Shown here one piece after another: positions 1 through 15,411 of a stretch of 64,000 nucleotides of DNA. This DNA is from Mesorhizobium sp. RMAD-H1. GTDB lineage: Bacteria > Pseudomonadota > Alphaproteobacteria > Rhizobiales > Rhizobiaceae. Made by a program: the position numbers and the translations under genes. The stretch is taken from assembly GCF_014191375.1 (NCBI RefSeq), contig NZ_JACHWN010000003.1:186001-250000 (forward strand), read 5' to 3'. The notes under the pieces are model-generated. The model did not search any database and was not told the origin of the DNA. It was given only the letters and a program-made list of their open reading frames with translations. Numbering within the stretch: the first letter of the stretch is position 1; the number at the start of each line of letters is the position of its first letter.

Positions 1-1
1 C

Positions 2-505
2 ATGTCGTTTTCCGATTTCATCGAGGCGACCATGGGTGCGGTGCGGACAACGGCCATGGTGCTGCTCATCATCGGTGCTGCAGCCTCCTTCGGTTGGCTT
101 CTCGCCTTCCTGCGCGTACCGGCGGCGATGATCGATTTCATGCAGTCGATCTCGACCGAACCGCTCGTCATCTTTCTCCTGATCAATGTGCTGCTGCTCT
201 TCCTCGGCACTTTCATGGACATGTCGCCGCTGATCATCATCACCACGCCGATCTTCCTGCCGGTCGTGCAGGCCTATGGCATGGACCCGGTGCATTTCGG
301 CGTCATTCTCATCCTTAATCTCGGCATCGGCCTTTGCACGCCGCCGGTGGGCGCGGTGCTTTTCGTCGGCTGTGCTGTGGGCAAGATCAGGATCTGGGAA
401 GCGATGCGCACCATCTGGCCATTCTATTTCGGCGCGCTCGCCGTGCTGATGCTGGTCACCTATATCCCCGCGCTGTCGCTGTGGCTGCCGAAACTCTTCC
501 ATTGA
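2..505 (+). CDS. TRAP transporter large permease (DctM family), 3' part only
   Basis: C-terminal 167 residues of a DctM-type large membrane subunit of a TRAP transporter, which drives uptake of a periplasmic-protein-bound acid with an ion gradient. The window edge cuts off the 5' part, so the ATG at base 2 is probably internal. Hydrophobic helices alternate with the family motifs FMDMSPLIIITTPI, GMDPVHFGV and CTPPVGAVLFVG. The same C-terminal motif set occurs in the second DctM at 33199-34497, so the two are paralogues. The next genes are a cupin, kduI and kduD in the same direction, so the likely cargo is a pectin-derived unsaturated or keto uronate; that is inference from context. Confidence 0.93.
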   Translation: MSFSDFIEATMGAVRTTAMVLLIIGAAASFGWLLAFLRVPAAMIDFMQSISTEPLVIFLLINVLLLFLGTFMDMSPLIIITTPIFLPVVQAYGMDPVHFGVILILNLGIGLCTPPVGAVLFVGCAVGKIRIWEAMRTIWPFYFGALAVLMLVTYIPALSLWLPKLFH

Positions 506-523
506 TGCGATACGAGGTGTGAA

Positions 524-844
524 ATGACGGATCGACAAAATCCCCTGCCATGGGTCGAGACGGGGGGAGGGGTAAGCCGCCGCGTGCTTTCCCATTCGCC
601 GGAGGTGATGCTGGTGGAATTCCGCTTCGGGCCCGACGGGTTCGGCGCCCCGCACCACCATCCCCATATCCAGGCGACCTATGTGCGCGAAGGCCGCTTC
701 GAATTCACCATCGATGGCGTGGCGCATGTCATCAGCGCGGGTGACACGCTGATCGTGCCCTCCAATGCCGTGCATTCCTGCCGGGCGCTCGAGCCAGGAA
801 CTCTGATCGACGTGTTCACTCCGCGTCGTGACGATTTCCTCTGA
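524..844 (+). CDS. Small cupin-domain protein
   Basis: 106-residue single-domain cupin. The metal-binding cupin motif 1 is visible as HHHPHIQATYVREGRFEF (about residues 44-61) and motif 2 as GDTLIVPSNAVHSC (about 73-86). Such small cupins next to kduI are common in pectin-degradation clusters (KdgF-like) and are proposed to help linearise unsaturated uronates. A KdgF role fits the length, the motifs and the neighbours but is not proven. The gene starts 18 bases after the permease stop, behind GAGGTG, and precedes kduI by 36 bases in one apparent operon. Confidence 0.85.
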   Translation: MTDRQNPLPWVETGGGVSRRVLSHSPEVMLVEFRFGPDGFGAPHHHPHIQATYVREGRFEFTIDGVAHVISAGDTLIVPSNAVHSCRALEPGTLIDVFTPRRDDFL

Positions 845-880
845 TCAATTCATACAATCCAGAAAAACGAGGAGGCAGAG

Positions 881-1708
881 ATGCTGAAAACTGAAACGCG
901 GCAGGCCATTGACCCGCGCCACGCAAAGACGCTGGATACGGCGGCGCTTCGCAAGGAGTTCCTGATCGAGGACCTTTTCACCGAGGGCAGGATCAATCTC
1001 GTCTACAGCCATCTCGACCGCATGATCGTCGGTGGCGCGGTGCCGGGAGCGGGCACGCTGGAGCTGAAGGAGGCCAAGGAGACCGGCACGCCGGGCTTCC
1101 TCGACCGTCGCGAGGCCGTCATCGTCAATGTCGGCGGCGAGGGCGGGGTTTCGGTCGGCGGCACGGACCATGTGCTCGGCAATCGCGATATGCTCTATGT
1201 CGGCATGGGCGCGGGTCCGCTGACGTTTTCGGGCAAGGATGCGCGCTTCTACATCCTTTCCGCGCCCGCCCATCGCGCCCTGCCGACAAGGCTGGTGCGC
1301 ATCAGCGACGCCAAGCGCCTCGATCTTGGCGACCGGGCGACCTCCAACGAACGCTCCATCTTTCAGTTCGTGCACCCGGATGTGATGGAATCCTGCCAGC
1401 TCGTCGTCGGCATGACGAAGCTCGCGGAAGGCTCCGTCTGGAACACGATGCCGGCCCATGTCCATGACCGGCGTTCGGAAGCCTATCTCTATTTCGACCT
1501 GCCGGAGGATCAGCGTGTCTTCCATTTCATGGGCGAGCCTTCCGAAACCCGCCATATGATCGTGAAGAACGAGCAGGCCATCCTTTCGCCGGGTTGGTCG
1601 GTGCATTGTGGCGCGGGCACCGCGTCCTACACCTTCATCTGGGCGATGGCGGGCGACAATGTCGATTACCGCGATGTCGACATGGTGAAGATGGAGGATC
1701 TGCGGTGA
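881..1708 (+). CDS. kduI: 5-keto-4-deoxyuronate isomerase KduI
   Basis: 275 residues, close to the 278 of the E. coli enzyme. KduI isomerises 5-keto-4-deoxyuronate to 2,5-diketo-3-deoxygluconate in the cytoplasm, the first dedicated step after oligogalacturonide cleavage. The zinc site is intact: H193, H195 and E200 in HVHDRRSE, and H242 in WSVHCG, equivalent to H196/H198/E203/H245 of E. coli. The start has a good ribosome site (GAGGAGG). Its stop overlaps the GTG start of kduD by four bases (GTGA), so the two are translationally coupled. Kinase and aldolase genes for the final steps are not in this window. Confidence 0.97.
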   Translation: MLKTETRQAIDPRHAKTLDTAALRKEFLIEDLFTEGRINLVYSHLDRMIVGGAVPGAGTLELKEAKETGTPGFLDRREAVIVNVGGEGGVSVGGTDHVLGNRDMLYVGMGAGPLTFSGKDARFYILSAPAHRALPTRLVRISDAKRLDLGDRATSNERSIFQFVHPDVMESCQLVVGMTKLAEGSVWNTMPAHVHDRRSEAYLYFDLPEDQRVFHFMGEPSETRHMIVKNEQAILSPGWSVHCGAGTASYTFIWAMAGDNVDYRDVDMVKMEDLR

Positions 1709-2463
1709 GCGGCCTTTTCGATCTCTCCGGTCGTCGCGCTTTCGTGACGGGAGCCAATACCGGCATCGGCCAGGCGATCGCACTCTCCCTCGGGCAGGCC
1801 GGTGCGCAGGTGATCTGCGCCGGCCGCTCCTCAATGGTCGAGACGCTGGCCATGCTGAAGGAAGCGGGCGCGACGGGTTTCGAATGCCTGACCGATTTTG
1901 CCGACAAGGATGCCGCCGTCGAGGCTTTCGGGAAGGTGGCGGAAGCACACGGTCCCATCGACATTCTTGTCAATAATGCCGGCATCATCCGGCGTGCCGA
2001 TGCGGTCGATTTCACGGAGGATGACTGGGACGAGGTGATGGACGTCAACCTGAAGACGGTCTTCTTCCTTTGCCAGGCATTCGCCCGTGATCTCCTGGCG
2101 CGTAAGACGGAAGGCACCATCATCAACATCGCCTCGATGCTGTCCTTCCAGGGCGGCATCCGCGTCGCGTCCTATACGGCGTCCAAGAGCGGCATTGCCG
2201 GGCTGACGAAGCTGCTTGCCTGCGAATGGGCTGCCAAGGGCATCAATGTCAACGCCATCGCGCCGGGCTATATCGCCACCAACAATACCGAGGCTCTGCG
2301 CGCCGACAGGCAACGTAATGAGGACATCCTGAAGCGCATCCCGGCGGGGCGCTGGGGCGAAGCGTCGGATATCGGCGGCGCCGCGGTGTTCCTGGCGTCG
2401 AAGGCGGCGCGCTATGTCCATGGCGCGGTGATCCCGGTCGATGGCGGATGGCTGGCGCGATAG
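1705..2463 (+). CDS. kduD: 2-dehydro-3-deoxy-D-gluconate 5-dehydrogenase KduD
   Basis: 252-residue classical short-chain dehydrogenase that reduces 2,5-diketo-3-deoxygluconate to 2-keto-3-deoxygluconate. The NAD-binding motif TGANTGIG lies near residues 14-21, NNAG follows about residue 90, and the catalytic Y157/K161 pair is in YTASK. The start is taken as the GTG at 1705. An in-frame ATG at 1594 lies inside kduI and would give an N-terminal extension the family lacks. The length matches E. coli KduD (253). It is the last gene of the TRAP-cupin-kduI-kduD run; only 15 bases separate its stop from the convergent toxin gene, with no clear terminator. Confidence 0.96.
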   Translation: MSGLFDLSGRRAFVTGANTGIGQAIALSLGQAGAQVICAGRSSMVETLAMLKEAGATGFECLTDFADKDAAVEAFGKVAEAHGPIDILVNNAGIIRRADAVDFTEDDWDEVMDVNLKTVFFLCQAFARDLLARKTEGTIINIASMLSFQGGIRVASYTASKSGIAGLTKLLACEWAAKGINVNAIAPGYIATNNTEALRADRQRNEDILKRIPAGRWGEASDIGGAAVFLASKAARYVHGAVIPVDGGWLAR

Positions 2464-2478
2464 ACCGCGCCTGACCGG

Positions 2479-2991
2479 CTACCGGCCTTCGGGCCGGTGG
2501 GCCAGCCGGCCTTCATCATCGATAAGCGTGAGACGCGCCGGAGCGGCATCTCCCCATTGCCAGAGCACGAGATTGAGGTTCGTCTGGTTCGTGCCCGGCG
2601 CGAAACTTCTAACAAGCAAGGCGTGATAACCCTTGGCTATCAGCCGCTGGGCGAAAGCCTGCGTCCTTGCCTCTCCGGCCGCCCTCATTTCATCGCGCCA
2701 GGTACTGTCGGCGAGAGCGGCGGCATCCATGCCCTCTGCCCTGAGCGCGGCATCATTCCGGCTGTCGAAGACGCCGTCGATCTCGGCCTCATAGGAGACA
2801 AGCGTCGTGGGCTGGAGATTGCCGACCTGGTTTGCTTCCCTCAGCGCGGTCAGCACCGACAGCGAGGTGTAGAGCGCCGGCATCCCCTTGGGGTTGAAGC
2901 GCCCGCCATAGAGTGCTGCGCCGCGCCCCGAGAGCGGCTCACGTGCATAGACCGGATTGAGGGCGCGAAAGAGCTGGCCGCGATAGAGCAT
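2479..2991 (-). CDS. RES-domain toxin of a RES/Xre toxin-antitoxin pair
   Basis: 170-residue RES-domain protein. Known members (MbcT, ParT, Res) attack NAD+ or ADP-ribosylate a host target. The RES signature GGRFNPKGMPALYTS is visible at about residues 29-43, with conserved arginine, tyrosine and glutamate positions around it (YRGQLFRAL near the start, ALREANQ after the signature). It lies eight bases downstream of an Xre/MbcA-type antitoxin gene on the same strand, the usual antitoxin-first order. Whether this one degrades NAD+ is inferred from the family. Confidence 0.92.
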   Translation of the reverse strand: MLYRGQLFRALNPVYAREPLSGRGAALYGGRFNPKGMPALYTSLSVLTALREANQVGNLQPTTLVSYEAEIDGVFDSRNDAALRAEGMDAAALADSTWRDEMRAAGEARTQAFAQRLIAKGYHALLVRSFAPGTNQTNLNLVLWQWGDAAPARLTLIDDEGRLAHRPEGR

Positions 2992-2999
2992 TGCCGATG

Positions 3000-3350
3000 T
3001 CAGGCGTGAACGCCGGCATCGGTCGCGTCGATATAGTCGAGCACCTCGTCGGCCCGTCCGCTGCGCACCAGCTGCATGGCGGTCTGGCCGGAGAAGCCGG
3101 GCAGCGGCTCCGACCGGTACCAGGCATAGGCCATCAGGGCGGAACCGAAGCGCGGCTCGAGCTTGTTGATGATCTCCACCATCTCGCGCAATCGCTTCTG
3201 CGTCCTGTCGGAATGGACGCGGTCCTTGCGCTGCACCGCATCCCGGCCAAGGCCGGCGGTCCGGGCGACTTCCTCGCTGGTCGTGCGCAGCGCCTCGGCG
3301 ATCTTGCGCGGGGCGAAGAAGCCGTTGTCCGCATATTGAACCAGTGCCAT
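3000..3350 (-). CDS. Xre/MbcA/ParS-type antitoxin
   Basis: 116 residues. The first half carries a helix-turn-helix (FAPRKIAEALRTTSEEVARTAGL). The second half carries the Xre/MbcA/ParS toxin-binding domain (DUF2384), with AMAYAWYRSEPLPGFSGQ-like family features and a final DEVLDYIDATDAGVHA segment expected to plug the toxin active site. It precedes the RES toxin in one operon. An AAGGA ribosome site lies nine bases before the ATG. Transcription probably starts from the promoter inside the palindrome at 3370-3415, which would give autoregulation. Confidence 0.92.
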   Translation of the reverse strand: MALVQYADNGFFAPRKIAEALRTTSEEVARTAGLGRDAVQRKDRVHSDRTQKRLREMVEIINKLEPRFGSALMAYAWYRSEPLPGFSGQTAMQLVRSGRADEVLDYIDATDAGVHA

Positions 3351-3369
3351 CTCAATCGTTCCTTCGACA

Positions 3370-3415
3370 ATTGCCGCATGTATTGACGCAATATAGCGTC
3401 GGTATGAGCGGCAAT
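3370..3415. promoter_or_regulatory. Nested palindromic operator of the toxin-antitoxin operon
   Basis: Two inverted repeats share one centre (3392.5). The outer arms are ATTGCCGC (3370-3377) and GCGGCAAT (3408-3415); the inner arms are GACGC (3385-3389) and GCGTC (3396-3400). The element sits 20 bases upstream of the antitoxin start and overlaps its predicted promoter. This is the arrangement expected for autorepression by the antitoxin or the toxin-antitoxin complex. Confidence 0.8.
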
Positions 3416-3418
3416 CAA
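3390..3418 (-). promoter_or_regulatory. Predicted sigma-70 promoter of the antitoxin-toxin operon
   Basis: On the minus strand a -35 TTGATT (3418-3413) and a -10 TATATT (3395-3390) are separated by exactly 17 bases. The -10 lies at the centre of the palindromic operator, so a bound repressor would block RNA polymerase. Confidence 0.7.
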
Positions 3419-3464
3419 GGGTGGGAGGAGGAGGCAGGGCCAGGCAGCGGAGGCTAGACTGGAG

Positions 3465-3671
3465 CTATGGTATCGTCGGCTTTTCGTCTTTCCGTTGCCC
3501 GTTGCACCAGAGGTTGGTCGCACGGGACAGCATCCGCAGCGGCGCTGTCACAAGCCGAGGTACGGGCGTTCCGAGCTCCTCGTAGAACCGGTCCTCAGCA
3601 TTCCGCCGGCTGCGCGGGTTGTCGTCCTTGGGCGGGGCGCAGGAAATGATGGCTGCAATCACTTCATACAT
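3465..3671 (-). CDS. Small hypothetical protein, 68 residues
   Basis: I do not recognise this protein. It begins MYEVIAAIISCAPPKDDNPR and continues with an arginine/glutamate-rich stretch. The start at 3671 is preferred over an upstream in-frame ATG because GGAGG lies seven bases before it. It is divergent from the LysR gene at 3762, with 90 bases between, so it could be a target of that regulator. There is no signal peptide beyond a short hydrophobic N-terminus and no conserved motif I can name. Confidence 0.55.
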   Translation of the reverse strand: MYEVIAAIISCAPPKDDNPRSRRNAEDRFYEELGTPVPRLVTAPLRMLSRATNLWCNGQRKDEKPTIP

Positions 3672-3761
3672 GGCAAACCTCCGTGAATGAAAAGCCATCA
3701 ATTCAATTACTGTGATTTTTTCGTTTCCTGAACAGCGGCAATTGCACTAGGCTTTTCAGCC

Positions 3762-4637
3762 ATGAAAAACATAGGCTGGGATACTTACGAGTTGTTCATG
3801 CAGGTCGCGCGCCACGGCGGCCTTACCGGCGCGACCGCCGCCAGCGGTCTCAGCCCGGCGACGATCGGGCGGCGGATGCTGGAACTTGAAGCCGGTATCG
3901 GGCGCGTGCTCTTCGTGCGAAGCCGGACGGGCTATCGGCTAACCGCGGACGGCTCATTGCTCTTTGATCAGGTCCTGGAAATGGAAGGGGCTGCCCGCCG
4001 GATCCGGAATTGGCGGGAAGAGGGGGCGGGTATGCCCCTGGTGAGGATCGCCTGCGGGACATGGGTTGCCTGGTGGGTATCGAGAAATTTCACGGCGATC
4101 CAGAGCGAGCGGGACGATTTCCGCGTCGATCTTTTCATCGCCGAGCAGCGTGCGAGCCTTGCCCACCGGGAGAGCGATGTCGGAATCCGTGCTTTCGAGC
4201 CGAAAGAGCCGAACCTCGCCTCGCGCCGGCTTGGCGAAGTGGCTTATGCTGTCTATCGGGCTCGCAACGCCCACCCTTCGGCTGCTGATCGATGGGTTGC
4301 GGTTGCGGAGGAGCAGGCGATTTCAGCCTATCTGCGTTATCCCCACCAGGAGATGGCGAGCCGAATAGCGGTGACTGTAAACCGGCCGCGATCGCTGCGG
4401 GATCTGGTGCTCGCCGGTGCCGGCGTTGCGGTTCTGCCCTGTTTCGTCGCGGATCAGGATGAAAGGCTGGAACGCATGGATGAGGAGATCGGCGCCCTGC
4501 GGCACAGCCAGTGGATCGTCATGAACAATGACGATCGCCACAGGCGGGAGATCCGAACGGTGGTCGATCGTATGACGAAACTGGTCCGCGGCCATGGCGA
4601 GCTGTTTGCGGGACGGTTCCCGGCCCGTGAAATTTAG
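3762..4637 (+). CDS. LysR-family transcriptional regulator
   Basis: 291 residues. The N-terminal winged helix-turn-helix spans about residues 5-65 (LFMQVARHGGLTGATAASGL, then PATIGRRMLELEAGIG and RTGYRLTADG). The remainder is a LysR-type effector-binding domain, ending in a segment with VLAGAGVAVLPCFVAD typical of the family. The inducer is unknown. It is divergent from the small gene at 3465-3671 and is followed, after 316 bases, by the large unknown gene at 4954. Either could be controlled by it. No clear T-N11-A box was picked out in the 90-base gap. Confidence 0.9.
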   Translation: MKNIGWDTYELFMQVARHGGLTGATAASGLSPATIGRRMLELEAGIGRVLFVRSRTGYRLTADGSLLFDQVLEMEGAARRIRNWREEGAGMPLVRIACGTWVAWWVSRNFTAIQSERDDFRVDLFIAEQRASLAHRESDVGIRAFEPKEPNLASRRLGEVAYAVYRARNAHPSAADRWVAVAEEQAISAYLRYPHQEMASRIAVTVNRPRSLRDLVLAGAGVAVLPCFVADQDERLERMDEEIGALRHSQWIVMNNDDRHRREIRTVVDRMTKLVRGHGELFAGRFPAREI

Positions 4638-4953
4638 AACGGATTTGTGATTCAGGATGCTGGCCGGGGTTTGATGCAAGCATAGGATGGTATCAGCTCA
4701 TTCCAATGATCTTCGTGAGCGCGTCAGCCTGATCTTCGCGGGGCAGCCGGAAAAAGCACACGCCTGCCAAGAACATTCAAAATGGAACGAAGCAGGAAAA
4801 ACATTACAAATGGAAATTTAATTTGTTGTGCACAATCGTCGGAAGTACTTAATTCTGTCATTTGGGCTCGATGGACGACCAAATTGCGGAGGGAATTGGT
4901 CATTCCGTCGATGGAGCGGTGATCTTGGCGGGGTAGTATTGCGAGGAGGAATA
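4638..4953. other. AT-richer intergenic region upstream of the large unknown gene
   Basis: No gene is supported here. It is visibly richer in A and T than its surroundings, especially 4790-4860. It holds a perfect 10-base palindrome TTGTGCACAA (4826-4835). A GTG within it is in frame with the downstream gene, but that start has no ribosome site, and the ATG at 4954 has a strong one. A GTCAGCCTGATC stretch near 4725 faintly resembles the start of rhizobial tts boxes; I do not consider it convincing. Confidence 0.5.
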
Positions 4954-7900
4954 ATGCCTGCGATTACCAGAATTAATAACAAATGGACGCCGCTCAATAA
5001 CAAAGCAAATCCGAATTCATCCATCATCTGGAATAGGATCGTCGAGCAGAATCGACCTGGGAGTACCGAGGCGACAGCGGCAAACAACTCCGTTGATTCT
5101 GCCGGAAATGATCGATTAGCCGCCGAAAATGGTCAGCCCCGAAACAATATCCACACAAACGGGGTCGACAATTATCAGAACTCGCCTTTCGTCTTCGCGT
5201 ATCATACGCCGCTGACGGGCGGAAATGAGCCGTTCCATGTGGCGCCGGTCTACAACGTTGCTCCGGCGCAAGAACCCATAACCGAGTTCGACGGCAGCAA
5301 TCCCGCGAATGACAGTCCCACGGGCCAGATCACCTACAGGGCACAGGAGGACGATTCGCTTATCGAGATCGCGCGGCAGCTCGGTTACGACGAAAACCTC
5401 GACCCGGAAGTGGCGGAAAGGCTCGGTTTCGACCCCGATAAGGATTATGCCGAGCAATATGCGGAGCTTTTGACGCGGATCAATCCCGAAATGCGTTCGA
5501 ATCCGGACGGCCTGCCGGAAACGCATGTGATTACGGTCCTTAGCGACGAACGCATGCAGGATATCCAGGGAATGTTCGAGATTCTCGATGGGGTGGGTTC
5601 CGTCGACGATCTATCGAACACCCAGAAGACGGAGCTGCAAGGGCTTGTGGACGCCGAACTCATCTCCGCCGCGGGCATAATGGACGGTGAAGCGTTCGAA
5701 GCTGAACTGAACGGGATCAGGGACCATTTGCAAGCCATTCTGCCGCAAGCCGAGGGCTTGTCGGACCTGATCGAATCCCGGGCAGATTCCTTCGAAATGA
5801 GCATGAACGGGCTGTTTTCCGGCTTGCGGGAAAGCGGGGCGGCCGCGGTTGAGAGCGGAGACTGGAGCGCCTTCCAGGAGGATCTAGAGGACGTCTTGCG
5901 CCGGAGGCTCAACCCGCCCTATCCGACGTCATCCGATTTCGATAGCGATCAGGTCGTAAACGACCTCATAGCGGAACTGGCATTTTACGGCCCGATCGAT
6001 GCTGAAACGCTGAAGGTCGATCAGGGCTATCTCGACGCGCTGGAGGCTGCGCAGCATCAGGTGATGGTCACCGATGTTGCCGAGAGGATCACCGATGGCG
6101 AGTCGCTGGAACTTCAATTGTTTGGGGTTCCCGCCGATCGGGCAGACAAGATCCTTGTCGAACTTTCGCAGATGCCGCCGACCGGAACCTATGAGGGTGA
6201 GGATAATCCGCCAACCTCGCGGCTGGCCGAGATTGTCCATCCGCTGCAGGAGACTTCAGCGGATGGAGATGGGACGATCTCCGACGAAGAGGCTGAACTG
6301 CTCAGCGACTTGAACCTGGTCGCCACCCAGGCCGGCGCATCTGCGGAACTCGATGAAAACGGGCGGATGCAGATTCCCGAAGGCGTCTCCCGCCTGGCGG
6401 AACTGTTGGTGGACGCAGATAGCGGCGACCTGGTCCCTGAAGCAGGAACGGCCGGTGACCGGATGCTGCGATTGGGGATGGCGGAAAGCATCGGCAATGG
6501 AGACGGCGCGACCCTGGCGATTGCCATGGCCGACCATTACGCGGAAAAAGGCTGGGATGGAGCAGCCGACAACATGCTGCACATGGTCTCCGTCGGCGTC
6601 AACAAGCTGACGCAGGACGCGGACCGGACCACGCAGGAATATATACGCCTCTTCGGTGATCCCCAGTATGCAGGGGGGCATCTGGAAGGGCTTGTTCCCG
6701 AGGAGGACCGCCAGCAAGCGATTGAGGCCACCGAACAAGGAAACCTCGAGGAAAACCCTGAAATCGTCAGGGATTTCGAGCGCCTTTTCGCCGGCGCGGC
6801 TGCAACGAATGCGGCCTTGGAGGCTTTGCCCGAGTCCTTGCGCAACCTTGAAGGAACCGGCCTCGATGGCTACGAGCGTCTGACCGGTGAACATGGGGAT
6901 CTGAAGACAACGCTTCTCGGCGAAGACGAAAACTCAATCTCGATGATTGGGGCGTCCGGCTTGGGCATGCCACAGGAGCCGCTCACCACTCTGACACTGG
7001 AGCAGGTCGAGACCAGACTGGAAAATTCCGAACTGTTTCAGGAATATATTTCCCTCTACGAGAATGTCTCCGACGAGGAGTTTAACACCGTCTTCAACGA
7101 TGTTCTGGATGTCTATGACAGAATAGAAGACCAGCTCGAAAATCCGGATTCCGACATTATCGATCTGCCGCCCGGAATGGCGGAACTACCAGGACCGGTG
7201 CGGGAAGTCTTGGATAGTCTGGAGGGCAAAAGCCGCGAGGAAGCCCTTGAGGCCCTGCGCGACCAACCTGTCCACGGCGCAGCGCTCCTGATGACATTGG
7301 AAGCGCTGGAGAACGGGCAGCCCAATGGCCCGAGCGGCGGTTTCATCTCGCGCGAAATCAAGAATTCGAGCCTGCAGGTTTCAACGGCTTTGGTAAATCC
7401 GTCGCCCATTGCGGAAAACATTACCAATCGCTGGAATACGGCAACAGGCGGCCAGAATTTCGAGCCACAGGAAGGTCTGCGTGGCCAGCGAGCCGCGGCG
7501 ATTCCCTTCAGCTCCGTCAGCGGCGCCCTGAACATATGGGGCGTCAATGAGTTCATGGCTTCCGACCGTCTCGACGACAAGGCCTGGGCGGTAGTCTTCG
7601 GCACCCTGGCTGGGGTGGATATGTCGCGCGTGGCGGCCGCCGGTGTTCAGAACTTCTTCATTCCACAGGGCAGGCACGTCAGACCGTCAACGGGAATGAG
7701 TAGCATCTTCAATCAGGGCGGACGCCTTGACAGATTTACCCGCACCGGATTCGTGAACGGCCCCGGCGCTATCAGGGTCCTAGGAAACACGGTTGCGGCG
7801 GTGACGGGGCCGATCGCCTTCTGGACCGCGGGCACCGAATTTTCCAACGGCAATACGCTGGGCGGTGTCGTTTGGACCTCCATGGGCGCTGTCAGCACGG

Positions 7901-8484
7901 CTCACGCCGTCGCGATATTTGCCGGCTCGTCCTGGGCGGGACCATTGGGATGGATTTCAGCGGCGGTTTGGCTGGGCGGCGCAGCAATCTTGCACTGGAA
8001 ATCGAATGAGAACCAGCGCACCTATTTCGAAGCAGACATGAAGTCCATCCTGGCCAATCTGGAACCGCCCGTGAACGAAGAGCGCGCGGCGATCCTGGCG
8101 GAAGGCAGGGATGATTTCGGCGCCTCTGATGAGGCGGTCGGCCGTCCGCTGTTCCCGCTGCTGGAGCAACTGGCCGAGTATCGCGGCTATGACACGCCTG
8201 AAGAGAAACAGGAGTTCTTCGAATATATTCTCTACAATGAGGAGGCGTTGCCCAACGATATGCTCAGAGAGCTGTCCGAAGCGTCGAAAGGCATCATCGT
8301 CGATCACCAATCTGACGACGACGGATACCTTATGGAGTCACGGGCCGCGGACGAGCGGGGCTATTATCCTCAGCCGCTAACGATCGAGCAGCTGAACAAT
8401 TGGATTGAAGGCACGATCCCCGAAGGACAGACAATGGGTATCTTCAATAATCCCGGTATCGTGTTGCCGCCGATGAGGAACTAG
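4954..8484 (+). CDS. Large unknown protein with LysM-like, EF-hand-like and hydrophobic segments
   Basis: 1176 residues; I do not recognise the family. The start is the ATG at 4954, behind GAGGAGGAATA. An in-frame GTG at 4828 would add 42 residues but lacks a ribosome site. The N-terminus has no signal peptide and is rich in Asn and Ser for about 100 residues. A LysM-like segment follows at about 126-195 (ITYRAQEDDSLIEIARQLGY). An EF-hand-like loop lies at 435-446 (SADGDGTISDEE), with Ser at position 1 instead of Asp. Long acidic helical stretches follow. Gly/Ala-rich hydrophobic segments lie at about 850-905, 938-965 and 970-1014. The whole protein is acidic. The unstructured N-terminus plus late hydrophobic segments recall type III translocator or effector proteins (HrpK/NopX-like), but no secretion genes are in the window, so this is only a hypothesis. 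Confidence 0.85.
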   Translation: MPAITRINNKWTPLNNKANPNSSIIWNRIVEQNRPGSTEATAANNSVDSAGNDRLAAENGQPRNNIHTNGVDNYQNSPFVFAYHTPLTGGNEPFHVAPVYNVAPAQEPITEFDGSNPANDSPTGQITYRAQEDDSLIEIARQLGYDENLDPEVAERLGFDPDKDYAEQYAELLTRINPEMRSNPDGLPETHVITVLSDERMQDIQGMFEILDGVGSVDDLSNTQKTELQGLVDAELISAAGIMDGEAFEAELNGIRDHLQAILPQAEGLSDLIESRADSFEMSMNGLFSGLRESGAAAVESGDWSAFQEDLEDVLRRRLNPPYPTSSDFDSDQVVNDLIAELAFYGPIDAETLKVDQGYLDALEAAQHQVMVTDVAERITDGESLELQLFGVPADRADKILVELSQMPPTGTYEGEDNPPTSRLAEIVHPLQETSADGDGTISDEEAELLSDLNLVATQAGASAELDENGRMQIPEGVSRLAELLVDADSGDLVPEAGTAGDRMLRLGMAESIGNGDGATLAIAMADHYAEKGWDGAADNMLHMVSVGVNKLTQDADRTTQEYIRLFGDPQYAGGHLEGLVPEEDRQQAIEATEQGNLEENPEIVRDFERLFAGAAATNAALEALPESLRNLEGTGLDGYERLTGEHGDLKTTLLGEDENSISMIGASGLGMPQEPLTTLTLEQVETRLENSELFQEYISLYENVSDEEFNTVFNDVLDVYDRIEDQLENPDSDIIDLPPGMAELPGPVREVLDSLEGKSREEALEALRDQPVHGAALLMTLEALENGQPNGPSGGFISREIKNSSLQVSTALVNPSPIAENITNRWNTATGGQNFEPQEGLRGQRAAAIPFSSVSGALNIWGVNEFMASDRLDDKAWAVVFGTLAGVDMSRVAAAGVQNFFIPQGRHVRPSTGMSSIFNQGGRLDRFTRTGFVNGPGAIRVLGNTVAAVTGPIAFWTAGTEFSNGNTLGGVVWTSMGAVSTAHAVAIFAGSSWAGPLGWISAAVWLGGAAILHWKSNENQRTYFEADMKSILANLEPPVNEERAAILAEGRDDFGASDEAVGRPLFPLLEQLAEYRGYDTPEEKQEFFEYILYNEEALPNDMLRELSEASKGIIVDHQSDDDGYLMESRAADERGYYPQPLTIEQLNNWIEGTIPEGQTMGIFNNPGIVLPPMRN

Positions 8485-8513
8485 AACCTCCACGGTGGAA
8501 TGGAAATCATTCA

Positions 8514-8530
8514 GTGGAAGCGGTTTCCAC
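8514..8530 (+). terminator. Short hairpin after the large unknown gene
   Basis: GTGGAA (8514-8519) and TTCCAC (8525-8530) form a six-base-pair stem with a five-base loop, 30 bases after the stop. There is no T-run behind it, so it is a weak terminator candidate. Confidence 0.35.
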
Positions 8531-8607
8531 GGCAAGGACTTGGCTGTTTACAACATTCCAGAGCGTTTTCGAGGCGGGTGGGTTCACCTGACGTCCGCAT
8601 AATGCGG

Positions 8608-8657
8608 CAAGACAAACAGATAGAGCGGCAGCGCGAGCGAATGCGAGCGTATCCGCT

Positions 8658-8662
<5 letters not shown>
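8608..8662 (-). terminator. Stem-loop terminator of the agl operon
   Basis: Read on the minus strand, GATAGAGCGG (8662-8653) pairs with CCGCTCTATC (8628-8619), a perfect ten-base-pair stem. The 24-base loop is itself GC-rich. TGTTTGTCTTG follows. The left arm includes the aglK stop codon. It fits a transcription end for the aglEFGAK operon. Confidence 0.6.
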
Positions 8663-9743
<1,081 letters not shown>

Positions 9744-9760
9744 CGTGTCCCTCCCTCCGG

Positions 9761-11440
9761 TCAGCTTATTCTTGCAAAGAACGCGTCATATGCGGGCAAC
9801 TCTATCCTGTCCTGGTGCAGGAAGCCCGAAAAACCGTGATGGTCGAGAGGTTCGACGTGCCCCTCTGGCCGAGCGATGAACTGTTCCTTCTCCGATAGAT
9901 TGAAGGCGCAGAAGATCGTTTCGTTGCCATGTCGCCTGACGAACGACAGAACCGGTCCCGTCGTCTGCAGGAACGCGATATCGCCTCTCACCAGTGCCGG
10001 ATGAGACCGGCGGAAGGCAAGCAGGCGACGGTAGTGGTTGAGCATTGACCCCAGCACATGCTCCTGCGCATCGACGGCGAGCGGCAGGTGCTCGCGCGGC
10101 ACCGGCAGCCAAGGGTTGCCCTCAGTGAAGCCGCCCGCGTGGCCGTTCTTTTCCCAGACCATCGGCGTGCGGCATCCGTCGCGTCCCTTGAAGTCGGGCC
10201 AGAACTGGATGCCGTAGGGATCCTGCAGGTCCTCGAAGGCGATATCGGCTTCGGTGAGGCCTAGCTCCTCGCCCTGATAGAGGCAGACCGAGCCGCGCAG
10301 CGACAGTAGTAGCCCGGCCATAAGCCGCAGATAGCGCTCCGAGTCGGCGGTTTGTGCCGCCCAGCGGGTCGCCGGTCGCACCACGTCATGGTTGGAGAAC
10401 GCCCAGCAGGCCCAGCCCTCCGGGGCAGCCTTCTCGAACTCGCCGATGATGGAGGCGATGCTGCCGGGCGACAGCAGGTCGGGCGACAGGAACTCGAAGG
10501 CATAGCATTTATGCAGCTTGTCGCCGCCGGAGGTATATTCCGCGACGAGCTCGAGCCCGCGCTGTGCCTCGCCCACCTCGCCGATGGCGGCAATGGCCGG
10601 ATATTCCTCCATCAGGGCGCGCAGCCGGCGCAGGAAGCCGATATTCTCGGGCCGGTTCTTGTCATAGACATGGTCCTGGTAGTTATAGGGATTCACCGCC
10701 GGCGTGACCTTGGCGTTGCGCATCTCCGGCAGAAGCGGCGGGTTGTCGCGCAATTCCTTGTCGCAGAAGCAGAAATTGACGGCGTCGAGGCGAAATCCGT
10801 CGACGCCGCGCTCCAGCCAGAAGCGCGCTACGTCAAGGACCGCATCCTGCACGTCCGGGTTATGGAAGTTCAGGTCCGGCTGCGAGGTGAGGAAATTGTG
10901 CAGGTAATATTGCCGCCGCCGCGTGTCCCACGTCCACGCGGAGCCGCCGAAGACCGAAAGCCAGTTGTTGGGTGGTGTGCCGTCGGGTTTCGCCTCAGCC
11001 CAGACATACCAGTCCGCCTTCGGATTGTCGCGGCTCTTGCGACTCTCGATGAACCAGGGATGCTGATCGGAGGTATGCGAGAGGACGAGGTCGATCATGA
11101 CGCGGATGCCGAGGCGGTGCGCCTCGGTGACGAGATGGTCGAAATCCTGCAGCGTGCCGAACATCTCGTCGACGCCGTAATAATCCGATACGTCGTAGCC
11201 GAAATCCTTCATCGGCGAGGGAAAGAAGGGCGAGATCCAGACGGCGTCGACGCCGAGCGAGGCGATATAGGGAAGCTTTTCGGCAATGCCGCGCAGATCG
11301 CCGATGCCGTCGCCGCTGGTATCGCGAAAGGAGCGGGGATAGACCTGATAGATGACGGCGCCGCGCCACCACTCCCGGTCGGGTTCCTGTCCGATCGGGG
11401 CCCGGTAGGGCGCCTTGTCAGTGCGAATAGTCGTCGTCAT
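9761..11440 (-). CDS. aglA: GH13 alpha-glucosidase AglA
   Basis: 559-residue glycoside hydrolase family 13 enzyme, expected to hydrolyse imported sucrose, maltose, trehalulose-type or similar alpha-glucosides in the cytoplasm (there is no signal peptide). The retaining triad is intact: nucleophile D219 in DGFRLDAVNF, acid/base E288 in IGEVGEA and D352 in FSNHDVVR. The conserved region I is IDLVLSHTSDQHPW. The start at 11440 (MTTTIRTDK) is chosen over an upstream in-frame start at 11689 that would lie deep within aglG. The length is close to Sinorhizobium AglA (about 550). Confidence 0.95.
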   Translation of the reverse strand: MTTTIRTDKAPYRAPIGQEPDREWWRGAVIYQVYPRSFRDTSGDGIGDLRGIAEKLPYIASLGVDAVWISPFFPSPMKDFGYDVSDYYGVDEMFGTLQDFDHLVTEAHRLGIRVMIDLVLSHTSDQHPWFIESRKSRDNPKADWYVWAEAKPDGTPPNNWLSVFGGSAWTWDTRRRQYYLHNFLTSQPDLNFHNPDVQDAVLDVARFWLERGVDGFRLDAVNFCFCDKELRDNPPLLPEMRNAKVTPAVNPYNYQDHVYDKNRPENIGFLRRLRALMEEYPAIAAIGEVGEAQRGLELVAEYTSGGDKLHKCYAFEFLSPDLLSPGSIASIIGEFEKAAPEGWACWAFSNHDVVRPATRWAAQTADSERYLRLMAGLLLSLRGSVCLYQGEELGLTEADIAFEDLQDPYGIQFWPDFKGRDGCRTPMVWEKNGHAGGFTEGNPWLPVPREHLPLAVDAQEHVLGSMLNHYRRLLAFRRSHPALVRGDIAFLQTTGPVLSFVRRHGNETIFCAFNLSEKEQFIARPEGHVEPLDHHGFSGFLHQDRIELPAYDAFFARIS

Positions 11441-11463
11441 GAAGAATATATCCGTATCGTGGT

Positions 11464-12615
11464 TCAACCGCCCTTGACCGATCCGGCCAGAAGGCCGCGG
11501 ACCAGGAAGCGCTGGAGACTGAAGAAGACGATCAGCGGAACGATGATCGTGATGAAGGCCGAGGCGGTCAGGATTTCCCAATTGCCGCCGCGTGATCCCA
11601 GGAGATTGACGAGACGCCCCGTCAGCACCAGCTGGTCGTCGCGCGAGCCGAGGAAGACGAGAGCGACAAGCAGGTCGTTCCAGGTCCACAGGAACTGGAA
11701 GATGGCGAAGGAGGCGAGCGCCGGGAAGGACAGGGGCAGCACGATCTTGACGAAGATATCGAAATCGCTGGCGCCGTCGACGCGTGCCGATTCCATGATT
11801 TCTCTCGGCAGTCCCGCTATGTAGTTGCGCAAGAGATAGATGGCCAGCGGCAGGCCGAAACCCGTATGGGCGAGCCAGATGCCGAGATAGCCTTTCGGCG
11901 ACACGCCGAACTGCGCTCCGATATCGTTATAGAGCCGGAGGAGCGGAATGAGCGACATCTGCAGCGGCACGACGAGCAGGCCGACCACGAGCGCGACAAG
12001 AAGCGCCCGGCCGGGGAATTTCATCCAGGCAAGCGCATAGGCGGCGAAAGCGGCGATCAGGATGGGGATGACGGTGGAGGGGATCGCCACCGTCAGGGAA
12101 TTGATGAAGGACTGGCCGAGCCCCTGGGCGCTCAGCACCTCTCGGTAATTGTCGAGCGTGAACTGCGGCGGGACGGAGGTGGTGTAGAAGATGCGCTCAC
12201 CGCGTCGCCCCTTCATTGGCTCGCCCGAGGAAAGCGTGAAATCGCCGTTTTCCGCCACGCTCAGGGTCGTCCCGTCGGGTAGAGTAGCCGTCTCTCCGGC
12301 CTCGAACTCGTCCGGCGACTGCACCGAATAGCCGAAGGCCGAAACCGTGCCGGAGCCGCCTTCGAAAACATTGCCGCGGATGAGATAGCGGCCGCCTTCT
12401 TCGACCTGGGTATCTGGCGCCGGCGCGCGATAGACCGCGTTCTGCCTGGATGGCGCGAGCGCCGTCCACCAGCCCGAGACCGCGATCTGGTCCTTGTCGC
12501 GCAAGGAGGAGATCAAAAGGCCGGCCGTCGGCAGGGTCCACAGCACGACGAGGAGGAGAACCGTGAGATGAACGACGAAAGTGAGGGGCGAGCGGCGCGT
12601 GGACGACCCGATCAT
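11464..12615 (-). CDS. aglG: Alpha-glucoside ABC transporter permease AglG
   Basis: 383-residue inner-membrane permease of the MalG type. After the first helix (about residues 12-35) there is an insert of about 100 mostly polar residues facing the periplasm, containing RYLIRGNVFEGGSGT and DGTTLSVAENGDFTL. The usual five-helix permease core follows, with the ATPase-contacting EAA loop MESARVDGASDFDIFVKIVL. The insert explains why it is longer than typical 280-300 residue MalG proteins. The start at 12615 is one base after the aglF stop; an in-frame ATG at 12645 would overlap aglF. Confidence 0.93.
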   Translation of the reverse strand: MIGSSTRRSPLTFVVHLTVLLLVVLWTLPTAGLLISSLRDKDQIAVSGWWTALAPSRQNAVYRAPAPDTQVEEGGRYLIRGNVFEGGSGTVSAFGYSVQSPDEFEAGETATLPDGTTLSVAENGDFTLSSGEPMKGRRGERIFYTTSVPPQFTLDNYREVLSAQGLGQSFINSLTVAIPSTVIPILIAAFAAYALAWMKFPGRALLVALVVGLLVVPLQMSLIPLLRLYNDIGAQFGVSPKGYLGIWLAHTGFGLPLAIYLLRNYIAGLPREIMESARVDGASDFDIFVKIVLPLSFPALASFAIFQFLWTWNDLLVALVFLGSRDDQLVLTGRLVNLLGSRGGNWEILTASAFITIIVPLIVFFSLQRFLVRGLLAGSVKGG

Positions 12616-12616
12616 C

Positions 12617-13627
12617 TCAGCGGCCCTCCATCTCTTTGGCGGCATTACGGATGTTCCAGATCATGATCGGCACGACAAGGATCATGATGACCATGGCGAT
12701 CACGGCGCCCCGGCCGAAATCGCCGCCGCCGCGGAACATCCAGTTGAACATCAGATTGGCGAGCACCTGCGTGTTCCACTGGCCGTTGGTCATCGCCAGC
12801 ACGATGTCGAAGACCTTGAGCACGAGGATGGTGATGGTGGTCCAGACCACGGCGATCGTGCCCCAGATCTGTGGCACCATGATCTTGAAGAAGATCTGCA
12901 GGCCGCTGGCGCCGTCGATAACGGCGGCCTCGATGGTCTCCTCGGGAATGCCGCGCAGCGCCGCCGAGAGGATCACCATGGCAAAGCCCGTCTGGATCCA
13001 GATGAGGATGATCATCAGGAAGATGTTGTTCCAGAAGGGGAGCGTGATCCAGGCTTCCGGAGTGCCGCCGAAATAGGTGACGATCGCGTTGAGGAGACCT
13101 ATCTGCTGGGCGCCTTCCGGTCGGTAATCATAGACGAATTTCCAGATCACCGAAGCACCCACGAAGGAAATCGCCATCGGCATGAAGATCAGCGATTTGG
13201 CGATATTGCCCCACCATATCCGGTCGGTCAGCGCGGCGATGATCAGGCCGAAGAAGGTGGCGGCGGCGGGGACGATCAGCAGCCAGAGGAAATTGTTGAA
13301 GATCGACTGGCGGAATTCGCCGTCATTGATCATCCAGTGGTAATTGGCCAGTCCGACGAATTGCCGGCCGTCCCTGCCGTTGAGGCTGAGCCAGGCGGAT
13401 TCGATGACGGGATAGACCAGATAGACCATTAGCGCGATGAGCGCAGGGGCGAGGAACAGCCATGGCCTGATCATGTTGCTTCTGCGCAGGTTGCGGGAAG
13501 CAATGGCGCCGCTGCGCCCCTTGGAGGGGAAGATCAGATCGAGCGCCCAGTTGCTCGCGATAAAATAGGCCGCACAGCCGGCGACCCCGATGACCATGGT
13601 GAACAGGGCAAAAAGAAGCTGCTGCAT
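12617..13627 (-). CDS. aglF: Alpha-glucoside ABC transporter permease AglF
   Basis: 336-residue MalF-type permease. An extra N-terminal helix (about residues 1-25) precedes the common core, which begins at SNMIRPWLFLAPALIALMVY. The EAA loop ETIEAAVIDGASGLQIFFKIM is present near residue 230. It forms the channel with AglG. It lies 102 bases downstream of aglE, behind the hairpin at 13685-13715, and its stop nearly abuts the aglG start. Confidence 0.94.
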   Translation of the reverse strand: MQQLLFALFTMVIGVAGCAAYFIASNWALDLIFPSKGRSGAIASRNLRRSNMIRPWLFLAPALIALMVYLVYPVIESAWLSLNGRDGRQFVGLANYHWMINDGEFRQSIFNNFLWLLIVPAAATFFGLIIAALTDRIWWGNIAKSLIFMPMAISFVGASVIWKFVYDYRPEGAQQIGLLNAIVTYFGGTPEAWITLPFWNNIFLMIILIWIQTGFAMVILSAALRGIPEETIEAAVIDGASGLQIFFKIMVPQIWGTIAVVWTTITILVLKVFDIVLAMTNGQWNTQVLANLMFNWMFRGGGDFGRGAVIAMVIMILVVPIMIWNIRNAAKEMEGR

Positions 13628-13684
13628 TCGTATCCCCTCTCCCGGATTGTTCTTGTATCAGTTCACCCCGCCAACGCGCCGGCA

Positions 13685-13715
13685 GCCAGAGGGAGGTGCC
13701 ATGCCCCCCTCTGGC
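13685..13715 (-). other. Intercistronic hairpin between aglE and aglF
   Basis: GCCAGAGGG (13685-13693) and CCCTCTGGC (13707-13715) form a perfect nine-base-pair stem with a 13-base loop, just after the aglE stop. No T-run follows. Such hairpins after binding-protein genes commonly protect the upstream mRNA or reduce read-through, so more binding protein than permease is made. Confidence 0.7.
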
Positions 13716-13729
13716 GTCGGGAGTCTCGC

Positions 13730-15085
13730 CTATTTGATGGCATCCCAGGAGGTCTGCACTTCCTTGGCCGCATCCTCGGCGGACTTGCCGCCGACATAAT
13801 CGACCATCGCCGTCCAGAAGGCACCGGCGCCGATCTTGCCTGGCATCAGGTCCGAGCCGTCGAAGCGGAAGGTAGTCGCCTCCGTCAGGATCTGTCCCTG
13901 CTTCTTCAGGATATCGTTGGCGTAGGCATCCGGGTTGACGGTCTTGTAGGGCGTGAGAAAGCCCGATTGCGCCATCCAGACCTCATGCGCAATCGGCGTT
14001 TCCAGGAATTCGATGAAGGCGCGGGCGGCAGGGCTGTCCTTGGTGATCATGGCCAGTGTTCCAGCGCCCAGAACCGGCTTGCCGAGATCCTTGCTGGCAT
14101 AGGGCGGGAAATAGAAAAAATCCGCGTCCACGCCGAGTTCGGTTCCCTGCGGGAAGAAGGAGGAGATGAACTGCGCCTGGTGGTGCAGGTAGCATTTCGG
14201 CGGCAGCGAGAAGAGACCGTCCGGGCTTTCGCGGAAGTCGGTGGTGGCGACAGCGGCGGTGCCGCCGGCGACGAATTTCGGGTTCTTGGCAAACCAGCCG
14301 AATTCGTTGATGGCCTCGATCACGGCGGGATCGTTGAAGGGGATTTCGTTGGTCACCCATTTGTCGTAGGTCTCGGGCGGTGCGACGCGCAGCATCAGGT
14401 CCTCCACCCAGTCGGTGGCAGGCCAGCCGGTGGCGCCGCCCGAACCGAGGCCGATGCACCAGGGCGTCCCGCCATCTGCGACGATCTGCTCGGTCAGCGC
14501 CTTCAGGTCCTCCATGGTCTGCGGGATTTCGTAGTCGGCATCCTCGAAATTTTCCGGTGAATACCAAACGAGCGACTTCACGTCGGCCTTGTAGGGGAAG
14601 GCGTAGAATTCCTCCTTGCCATCCTTGCCCTTGTAGGTGCCGAGCTGCACCCAGGAATCGCCGGCCGCGTAATTGTCCTGGACGAATTTCTTCGTCTCTT
14701 CGCCGAGCGGGGTGAGCAGTCCCTTCGAGGCCAGATCGGCAATGAGGCCAGGTTGCGGCAGGATGGCGATATTGGGCGGGCTGCCGGCCTGCGTGTCGAT
14801 GACGATCTGCTGCTCGTAATTCTCCGAAGAGGAATATTCGAGCTTGGCGCCTGTCGCCTCCTCGAAATAGGCGGCAATGGATTTGAACAGGGTTTCGTCC
14901 TCGCCGCGCCAGGGGCCGAACACGGTGAGGGTCTGGCCGCTCAGATCATGGCCGGCCTTGAAATCCTCATAGCTCTTCCAGGTGAAGCGCGAATCCTCGC
15001 CGGGCTTGAATTTCAGGTCAGCGGCATGGGCGAAAGTGGCGCATAGCGCAGCCACCGCAACGCCCAGAACAAATGTCTTTCGCAT
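13730..15085 (-). CDS. aglE: Alpha-glucoside-binding periplasmic protein AglE
   Basis: 451-residue family 1 extracellular solute-binding protein. The first 22 residues form a signal peptide (MRKTFVLGVAVAALCATFA, cleaved around HAADLKF). The start at 15085 has GGAGGAT eight bases upstream; an in-frame ATG at 15148 adds 21 polar residues before the signal peptide and is rejected. It delivers alpha-glucosides to AglFG. It is the first gene of the operon, behind the palindromic operator at 15173-15184. Confidence 0.95.
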   Translation of the reverse strand: MRKTFVLGVAVAALCATFAHAADLKFKPGEDSRFTWKSYEDFKAGHDLSGQTLTVFGPWRGEDETLFKSIAAYFEEATGAKLEYSSSENYEQQIVIDTQAGSPPNIAILPQPGLIADLASKGLLTPLGEETKKFVQDNYAAGDSWVQLGTYKGKDGKEEFYAFPYKADVKSLVWYSPENFEDADYEIPQTMEDLKALTEQIVADGGTPWCIGLGSGGATGWPATDWVEDLMLRVAPPETYDKWVTNEIPFNDPAVIEAINEFGWFAKNPKFVAGGTAAVATTDFRESPDGLFSLPPKCYLHHQAQFISSFFPQGTELGVDADFFYFPPYASKDLGKPVLGAGTLAMITKDSPAARAFIEFLETPIAHEVWMAQSGFLTPYKTVNPDAYANDILKKQGQILTEATTFRFDGSDLMPGKIGAGAFWTAMVDYVGGKSAEDAAKEVQTSWDAIK

Positions 15086-15172
15086 TCGAAGTATCCTCCC
15101 TGCTTCGATCGAACCATCGTCGGAATTACCGGACCGGCTTGCAAGCAATCATGACGGAACAGCCACGTCGCT

Positions 15173-15184
15173 CAAAGCGCTTTG
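15173..15184. promoter_or_regulatory. AglR operator upstream of aglE
   Basis: CAAAGCGCTTTG is a perfect 12-base palindrome with the central GC step typical of LacI-family operators, 88 bases upstream of the aglE start. The same core recurs at 15379-15392 near aglR. The regulator is inferred to be AglR from adjacency and the matching pair. Confidence 0.8.
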
Positions 15185-15378
15185 ATCGTGTCGAGGACAT
15201 ATCGCCTGCAACCGAGAGTCAAGGCAAAACTGATGGTTATGAGAAAGAATGTCTCATTTGCTGCGGTGCAGCACAAAATTTGGGAACAAGATTCTGCTTT
15301 TCGGCTTCCATTTGAAATGGGCGTGTAGTTTTATGAAAGCTGGAGAAGGCTGAAAAAGCGGCGAGAATGGATGTCTTC

Positions 15379-15392
15379 CCAAAGCGCTTTGG
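15379..15392. promoter_or_regulatory. AglR operator upstream of aglR
   Basis: CCAAAGCGCTTTGG is a perfect 14-base palindrome, 20 bases before the aglR TTG start, and identical over 12 bases to the operator near aglE. This position suggests autorepression of aglR. The rest of the 326-base gap also holds a minor inverted repeat, ATGAGA (15239-15244) with TCTCAT (15252-15257). Confidence 0.8.
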
Positions 15393-15411
15393 ATAAACCG
15401 GGATAACCATC

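Follow-up and report, generated by a model that had tools for sequence, protein, structure and literature searches.

The second type III secretion system (T3SS) of NGR234 and the system on pRmeGR4c of Sinorhizobium meliloti GR4 belong to a group that has been named Rhc-II and whose role was described as unsettled (PMC3973906). Rhizobial T3SSs are known to have a secretin derived from Tad systems (PMC3459982). Rhc-II genes were up-regulated in NGR234 bacteroids, and deletion of seven of them resulted in no symbiotic defect (PMC3732241); in Mesorhizobium alhagi, the Rhc-II genes were induced by salt and a deletion reduced stress tolerance (PMC5826200). A HrpK-like hypothetical translocator was noted for the Pseudomonas syringae member and, in the portion of that source available to us, not for the system of NGR234 (PMC3574062). 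In the portions of the literature covered by our search, we found no translocator or effector that had been characterised experimentally in an Rhc-II system. Here, we analysed a 64,000-nucleotide stretch of the Mesorhizobium sp. RMAD-H1 genome (the window; contig NZ_JACHWN010000003.1, positions 186,001 to 250,000), which carries a gene for a 1176-residue protein (4954..8484, plus strand), referred to as family A. The product of this gene is likely to be exported by an Rhc-II T3SS, a claim that we hold with good confidence. The original prediction, made from the window alone, had guessed at a type III translocator or effector; the T3SS part of the guess is favoured by the system in the same genome, by the position of one orthologue, by T3SS-linked homologues and by co-occurrence, and the protein may be either a translocator or an effector.

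Searches of Pfam, NCBIfam and PDB sequences with the window protein returned sub-threshold matches only (Ribosomal_L22, ArgR, BTH_I2691 and VbhA, none of which was accepted), giving no family and no solved structure. Relatives were recognised through profiles, as three families of large proteins, B, E and F, with which A shares only 21-23% (~22%) pairwise identity. Compared singly by profile-profile alignment, A matched E, F and B in colinear blocks with probabilities of 74.5, 68.1 and 83.7 (E 2.7e-5, 4.8e-5 and 8.1e-6), respectively. Against merged E and F, the probability was 98.8% (E 5.8e-17) and the match ran from about residue 122 to about residue 1150 of A; the reversed A profile, used as a control, gave E 0.14. 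A hidden Markov model built only from E and F picked out the window protein (P0001) among 959 open reading frames (ORFs) with E 2.4e-17, and the combined A, E and F profile matched B across most of its length (E 1.9e-14). Among 40 other ORFs, the best E values were 0.013 against A and 0.12 against all four families combined, although this control is somewhat lenient because ORFs that the family profiles had already matched with E <= 1 were left out. The profiles unite A, B, E and F in a divergent superfamily of proteins of ~1000-1200 residues with near-full-length homology, and we class A as a new family among the T3SS-associated large proteins. Neither a match to an ordinary cytoplasmic family nor a restriction of the homologues to genomes without specialised secretion was found.

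The A, E and F profile was also used to search 397 genomes of the order, where three relatives beyond the window's own gene were detected (E 1e-11 to 1e-21). One is located ~8 kb from SctV (G511), one adjoins SctU (G705) and the third is on a contig too short to judge (G503); as the query contained T3SS-linked E and F sequences, the T3SS link in these new genomes is not fully independent. Three of the seven genomes matched (G423, G575 and G580) had matches to the LysM part only and were discounted. A class-wide search with B matched 54 of 385 genomes and is uninformative on B beyond the order, because all matches except its own gene were confined to the LysM stretch (E >= 8e-6). A tblastn search of plasmids with the window protein alone gave one weak match (E 0.8), which led to family F.

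Family B is a protein of ~1040 residues with a real LysM domain, one member scoring above the Pfam cut-off (33.1 vs 20.9 bits). It belongs to Rhc-II T3SS clusters, for example those of NGR234 pNGR234b and S. meliloti GR4 pRmeGR4c, adjoins SctT in many of these clusters, and is annotated in LMB1 and P. zundukense merely as a LysM peptidoglycan-binding domain-containing protein. In 346 genomes of the bacterial family, B was found in 14, after three LysM-only matches (G151, G201 and G288) had been dropped from 17, and all four carriers of A are among these 14. The naive P value of this co-occurrence is 1.7e-6, which overstates independence as three of the four carriers belong to one genus. B was also present in 15 of 20 plasmid records whose SctV is at least 54% identical to that of the window's genome, including Phyllobacterium A18/5-2, where it is in pieces. 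Among the other five, the Ensifer adhaerens NER9 protein shares only the B N-terminus, and no B match was found in Rhizobium johnstonii TP25, Phyllobacterium T1293 and 628, and S. fredii CCBAU 45436.

Families E (S. meliloti, S. sojae and E. adhaerens) and F (Phyllobacterium, S. americanum and G254) occupy slots neighbouring the T3SS. Six of the nine E/F loci that were fetched lie at most 10 kb from T3SS genes or B. A further two share a replicon with the T3SS at a distance of up to ~25 kb, which puts eight of the nine on the T3SS replicon. Similar slots hold family N in NGR234, R. gallicum, R. sullae, Ciceribacter and P. zundukense, which was rejected as a relative since it is not detectably homologous to A (profile-profile E 0.36); another protein, M, has matches to N as well as to the A, E and F profile, too weak for the families to be merged. 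Neighbouring slots also hold family C, a HrpK-like large protein (PF16937, E 7e-26). The combined A, E, F and B profile matched the hydrophobic C-terminus of C with a probability of 56% (E 1.1e-4; reversed control 0.14), a link that is suggestive only. The original prediction had named HrpK or NopX as the match to expect; this was not obtained by profile search, beyond the weak likeness of the superfamily C-terminus to that of the HrpK-like protein.

Several variants of these slots were seen. In E. adhaerens NER9, the place of B next to sctT is taken by a 1473-residue protein (L138:20001-24422), of which only about the first 200 residues are B-like, and the fragmented B of Phyllobacterium sp. 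A18/5-2 (L106:30730-33632) has transposase-like ORFs nearby (named by eye). In Phyllobacterium 628 and T1293 (records NZ_CP050302.1 and NZ_CP088276.1; L126 and L127), a T3SS and F are present and a search of the plasmid collection gave no B match, so F could perhaps take the place of B there. Three proteins of 1404-1420 residues (L110:4336-8550, L111:5738-10000 and L124:5717-9964) have a B-like N-terminal part of ~350 residues, and a Pfam scan of L110 also found a DUF4781 (PF16013) part. They reflect domain shuffling onto a common N-terminus, which is probably T3SS-exported. In addition, 511-residue proteins of the T3SS clusters of two relatives, G003 and G004 (L045:7551-9086 and L048:12415-14133), resemble residues ~450-563 of the window protein; they have no Pfam match.

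A T3SS cluster was identified on contig 11 of the window's genome (G000), a different contig from that of the family A gene. SctT, SctR, SctQ, SctJ and SctV scored above the T3SS model cut-offs, the ATPase SctN above the FliI/YscN subfamily cut-off only, and SctS, SctU, SctD and the secretin SctC were recognisable with scores below the curated cut-offs. The observation that no secretion gene lies near family A holds for the ORFs listed at window positions 1-16000, and it is the neighbourhoods of the homologues that show T3SS genes. SctV of this system is 54.3% identical to that of the second system of NGR234 and 54.8% to that of S. meliloti GR4 pRmeGR4c, compared with 42.6% for the first system of NGR234 and 44.3% for R. 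etli Mim1; judged by SctV, the system is closer to the Rhc-II group.

In a first search of 101 relatives, the family A gene was found in three genomes, namely the window's own, Paramesorhizobium deserti (G002) and Phyllobacterium salinisoli (G005); a fourth match (G077) was RNase E and was dropped. A profile search of the 346 genomes matched 27 at E <= 1, of which four were kept as matches above E 1e-3 were treated as noise, adding Sinorhizobium sojae CCBAU 05684 (G182). A T3SS is present in all four carriers. SctV of P. salinisoli is 93% identical to that of the window's genome and 89% to that of P. deserti, and SctV of S. sojae is on a plasmid. The window's genome and P. deserti have A, B and the HrpK-like C on separate contigs, a contig-2 protein being the only one in the former to match PF16937 (E <= 10), and P. 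salinisoli has A and B with no PF16937 match.

Identity between the window protein and its three orthologues is 86-89%, and pairwise ratios of nonsynonymous to synonymous substitution rates (dN/dS) are 0.15-0.20. Selection was looser in alignment columns 1-125 (0.36-0.45) than in the remainder (0.11-0.16). Because of this conservation, family A is a real gene under purifying selection. The lack of a named family and the patchy occurrence could have indicated a chance long ORF or a decaying gene, but this explanation is refuted by the selection test. With four intact orthologues, a kept upstream block and an AGGAGG ribosome-binding site (4944..4949, plus strand), found directly 5' of the start in the other three loci as well, we give it practically no credence.

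Family A has a dS of 0.45-0.46 to the other genus, only a little above the 0.33-0.42 found within the genus, whereas across these genera the identity of B is 66% and that of SctV 54%. Since B and SctV have diverged strongly and the dS of A has barely risen, this points to horizontal movement of the family A gene. Its flanking genes differ in all four loci, and in P. salinisoli the orthologues of the LysR and ABC genes that flank it in the window are on a different contig from family A. Identity among the loci climbs upstream of the gene from about window position 4750 and is gone downstream by 60 bases past the stop codon. The family A gene is mobile, has four different contexts and carries its own upstream block. 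In P. salinisoli, it is located ~2 kb past SctU of a T3SS cluster that also holds SctV and a Tad-type secretin (by eye), with an L,D-transpeptidase-like gene, named by analogy with annotated clusters, between SctU and family A.

In P. deserti, HlyD/ABC-type genes (identified by eye) lie close to family A. This could suggest that A functions as a membrane-inserting toxin or as a surface protein which uses a type I (T1SS), type VI (T6SS) or contact-dependent route and that its T3SS link is incidental. There is also a weak NCBIfam likeness to the T6SS effector BTH_I2691 (NF041559), with 9.7 bits for A and 24.7 bits for B; the curated cut-off is 150, and membership was rejected. However, no T1SS or T6SS family in Pfam or NCBIfam matched A above cut-off, the relatives of A adjoin T3SS genes in several genera and every carrier has a T3SS, so that we consider this explanation very improbable.

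The anatomy of the protein was compared with that of its relatives. The predicted Asn/Ser-rich N-terminus was confirmed, as serine, asparagine and threonine make up 38% of residues 1-50, ranking seventh among the 709 ORFs of more than 150 residues in the fetched loci (mean 15.4%; the set includes shadow ORFs). A signal peptide is probably lacking, as had been stated, there being no 19-residue hydrophobic window of at least 1.2 near the start, judged by composition and hydropathy only. The LysM-like segment, predicted at residues 126-195, aligns by profile to that of the E/F relatives over residues 122-200 (5317..5553, plus strand), where A has an extra insert of ~23 residues; it has no match to Pfam LysM (PF01476) and is LysM-like by homology to relatives only. 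The predicted calcium loop at residues 435-446 (6256..6291, plus strand) was recovered by pattern search; it is close to canonical, with Ser as its first residue, and is kept in all four orthologues. Membership of the EF-hand families was not accepted as A has no Pfam EF-hand match, and the pattern was not found in the eight E/F relatives examined.

Towards the C-terminus, a Gly/Ala-rich, moderately hydrophobic region (residues 880-1013; 7591..7992, plus strand) was delimited by hydropathy and by homology to B, E and F. Three hydrophobic stretches had been proposed between residues 850 and 1014; Kyte-Doolittle windows of at least 1.2 do start at residues 880, 938, 972 and 995, but their maximum of 1.46 is moderate and falls under the usual transmembrane cut-off of 1.6. 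Hydrophobic C-terminal segments are a feature of HrpK/HrpF, which A shares at this level. The peaks of A are at 75-85% of its length, near their position in B, E and F (three members each). The window protein has a net charge of -126. No cysteine was found in any of the four family A proteins, whereas ~13 would be expected in the window protein from the other ORFs of the set (shadow ORFs included). Cysteine was also absent from 19 of 20 B proteins, with starts set at the conserved M-[SAV]-[YF]-R-I-D and with two members of the B cluster (L116 and L132) excluded from this count and from the B profile, and from four of 12 other large ORFs, these 12 including two unlisted B proteins. A cysteine-free, acidic protein with a start rich in serine, asparagine and threonine and with late hydrophobic segments would fit a T3SS-exported protein, without proving export.

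From the homology, the T3SS linkage of the relatives, the co-occurrence and the anatomy that were observed, we infer export, glycan contact and membrane insertion as follows. A would be an accessory substrate of the Rhc-II-type T3SS encoded on the other contig. Its N-terminus is the probable export signal, and the LysM-like segment that follows probably contacts glycan or the wall; beyond a long middle part, the last quarter of the protein is hydrophobic. The protein could pass the T3SS unfolded, which fits the absence of cysteine, and then meet the glycan layer through its LysM-like part, while its Gly/Ala-rich C-terminal segments would insert into the target membrane. A may in this way serve as a substitute or extra translocator alongside B and, in genomes that have it, the HrpK-like C. 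A translocator is favoured by the near-full-length homology to the cluster protein B, together with the LysM-like part and the hydrophobic C-terminal quarter. It is also favoured by the use, in plant-associated T3SSs, of more than one translocon candidate, these being from different families and in part redundant (HrpK, HrpF and HpaT; PMC5483457). That A is an accessory, mobile Rhc-II T3SS substrate with a translocator-type membrane role is our best guess, to which about half of our belief is given.

The main rival to this reading is that A is an effector. The same T3SS would export it and deliver the entire protein into the target cell, its C-terminus then acting at an internal membrane. An effector could explain why A is patchy and mobile (4 of 346 genomes), why its dS between genera is close to that within a genus whereas SctV and B have diverged, and why it is accessory to B. 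An N-terminus shared among differing C-terminal parts is a pattern known from effectors, and the B-type N-terminus is joined elsewhere to other parts such as DUF4781. On the other hand, A is homologous over nearly its full length to B, itself in 15 of the 20 related plasmid T3SS records and beside sctT where these were read; no enzymatic domain was detected in A (Pfam, NCBIfam), and the hydrophobic C-terminal quarter is common to A, B, E and F. An effector role is possible, and we regard it as less likely than the translocator role.

Returning to A as an accessory T3SS substrate with a translocator-type role, a number of observations weigh against it. Its export is predicted from sequence and genome context. 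Three of the four carriers, the window's genome included, do not have family A beside the T3SS, and the gene is absent from 10 of the 14 B carriers, so A is no core part of the system. B itself is usual rather than universal in the related plasmids, and for one F locus, that of Phyllobacterium T1293, the T3SS is located on a different plasmid. No regulatory motif common to the family A upstream block and the T3SS operons was found in the T3SS loci scanned. Membership of HrpK/HrpF (PF16937) was rejected, with no PF16937 match in A, and the profile link to the HrpK-like C-terminus stands at the 56% given above. The hydrophobic segments are only moderately hydrophobic, E proteins carry 2-3 cysteines, and an AlphaFold model from three sequences reached a predicted local distance difference test score (pLDDT) of 29.

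Upstream of the gene, a block of ~60 bp (4802..4860, plus strand) is kept in all four family A loci despite their differing flanks and is probably a promoter or operator. It contains a perfect palindrome, TTGTGCACAA (4826-4835), which is a possible operator for some regulator; a sigma-70 scan found no promoter-like site in the block. The 14-mer TTTGTTGTGCACAA (4822-4835) occurs once per genome in all four carriers and is absent from G001, G003 and G004, relatives without a family A gene that were used for comparison. The gene had been described as lying in an AT-richer spot beside a toxin-antitoxin pair; the spot is only slightly AT-richer (58.1% vs 60.8% G+C). A RES/Xre-like toxin-antitoxin pair, named by eye, is located near family A at window 2479-3350. 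Similar pairs (by eye) are found in the window's genome (L042:6863-8034) and in P. deserti (L043:11792-12966) on the SctU side of the T3SS cluster, past an L,D-transpeptidase-like gene, and at the corresponding place in P. salinisoli there is only a shortened Xre-like ORF with a resolvase-like fragment, immediately before the family A gene.

These results provide a list of candidates for Rhc-II (A, B, C, E and F) and connect an orphan gene with this secretion system, which allows the question to be addressed through simple deletions. They also illustrate how a T3SS-linked protein can escape notice when its gene has moved from the cluster and only ~22% identity to its relatives is left. A wider proposal, which we consider unlikely on present evidence, is that A, B, E and F could be a third class of T3SS translocon besides YopB/YopD and HrpF/HrpK, combining wall contact through LysM with membrane insertion. 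If this were true, B would be the usual Rhc-II component, A, E and F would serve as interchangeable 'tips', mobile by horizontal transfer, that determine the target range, and a roaming A gene could re-tool the injection machine from a distance.

In the portions of the literature covered by our search, no description of the A, B, E and F families was found. The nearest is a 1060-residue protein of the Rhc-III clusters of Agrobacterium K84 and A4, which is like A in size and in its T3SS-cluster position and is said to have low similarity to HrpK1; the comparison is by description only, from the part of the source available, and does not distinguish a B-like from a C-like protein (PMC3973906). 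HpaT of Xanthomonas translucens is, as A may be, a translocon candidate of another family next to a T3SS, and is partly interchangeable with HrpF; unlike A, it is co-regulated with its own T3SS, and the likeness is again drawn from the available description and not from sequence (PMC5483457). The putative translocators HrpK1 and HrpF (PF16937) resemble A in size class, T3SS association, hydrophobic C-terminal segments and a weak C-terminal profile match, but A has no PF16937 match, and neither the repeats nor the central HrpK part of C could be detected in it. Closest to A is family B, which shares with A, E and F the near-full-length profile homology and the order of a LysM part followed by a hydrophobic C-terminus, and is cysteine-free in nearly all members counted. 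B has a canonical LysM and sits beside sctT in the annotated clusters that were read, whereas A is accessory and mobile, with a degenerate LysM-like part that carries an insert and a calcium-like loop of its own.

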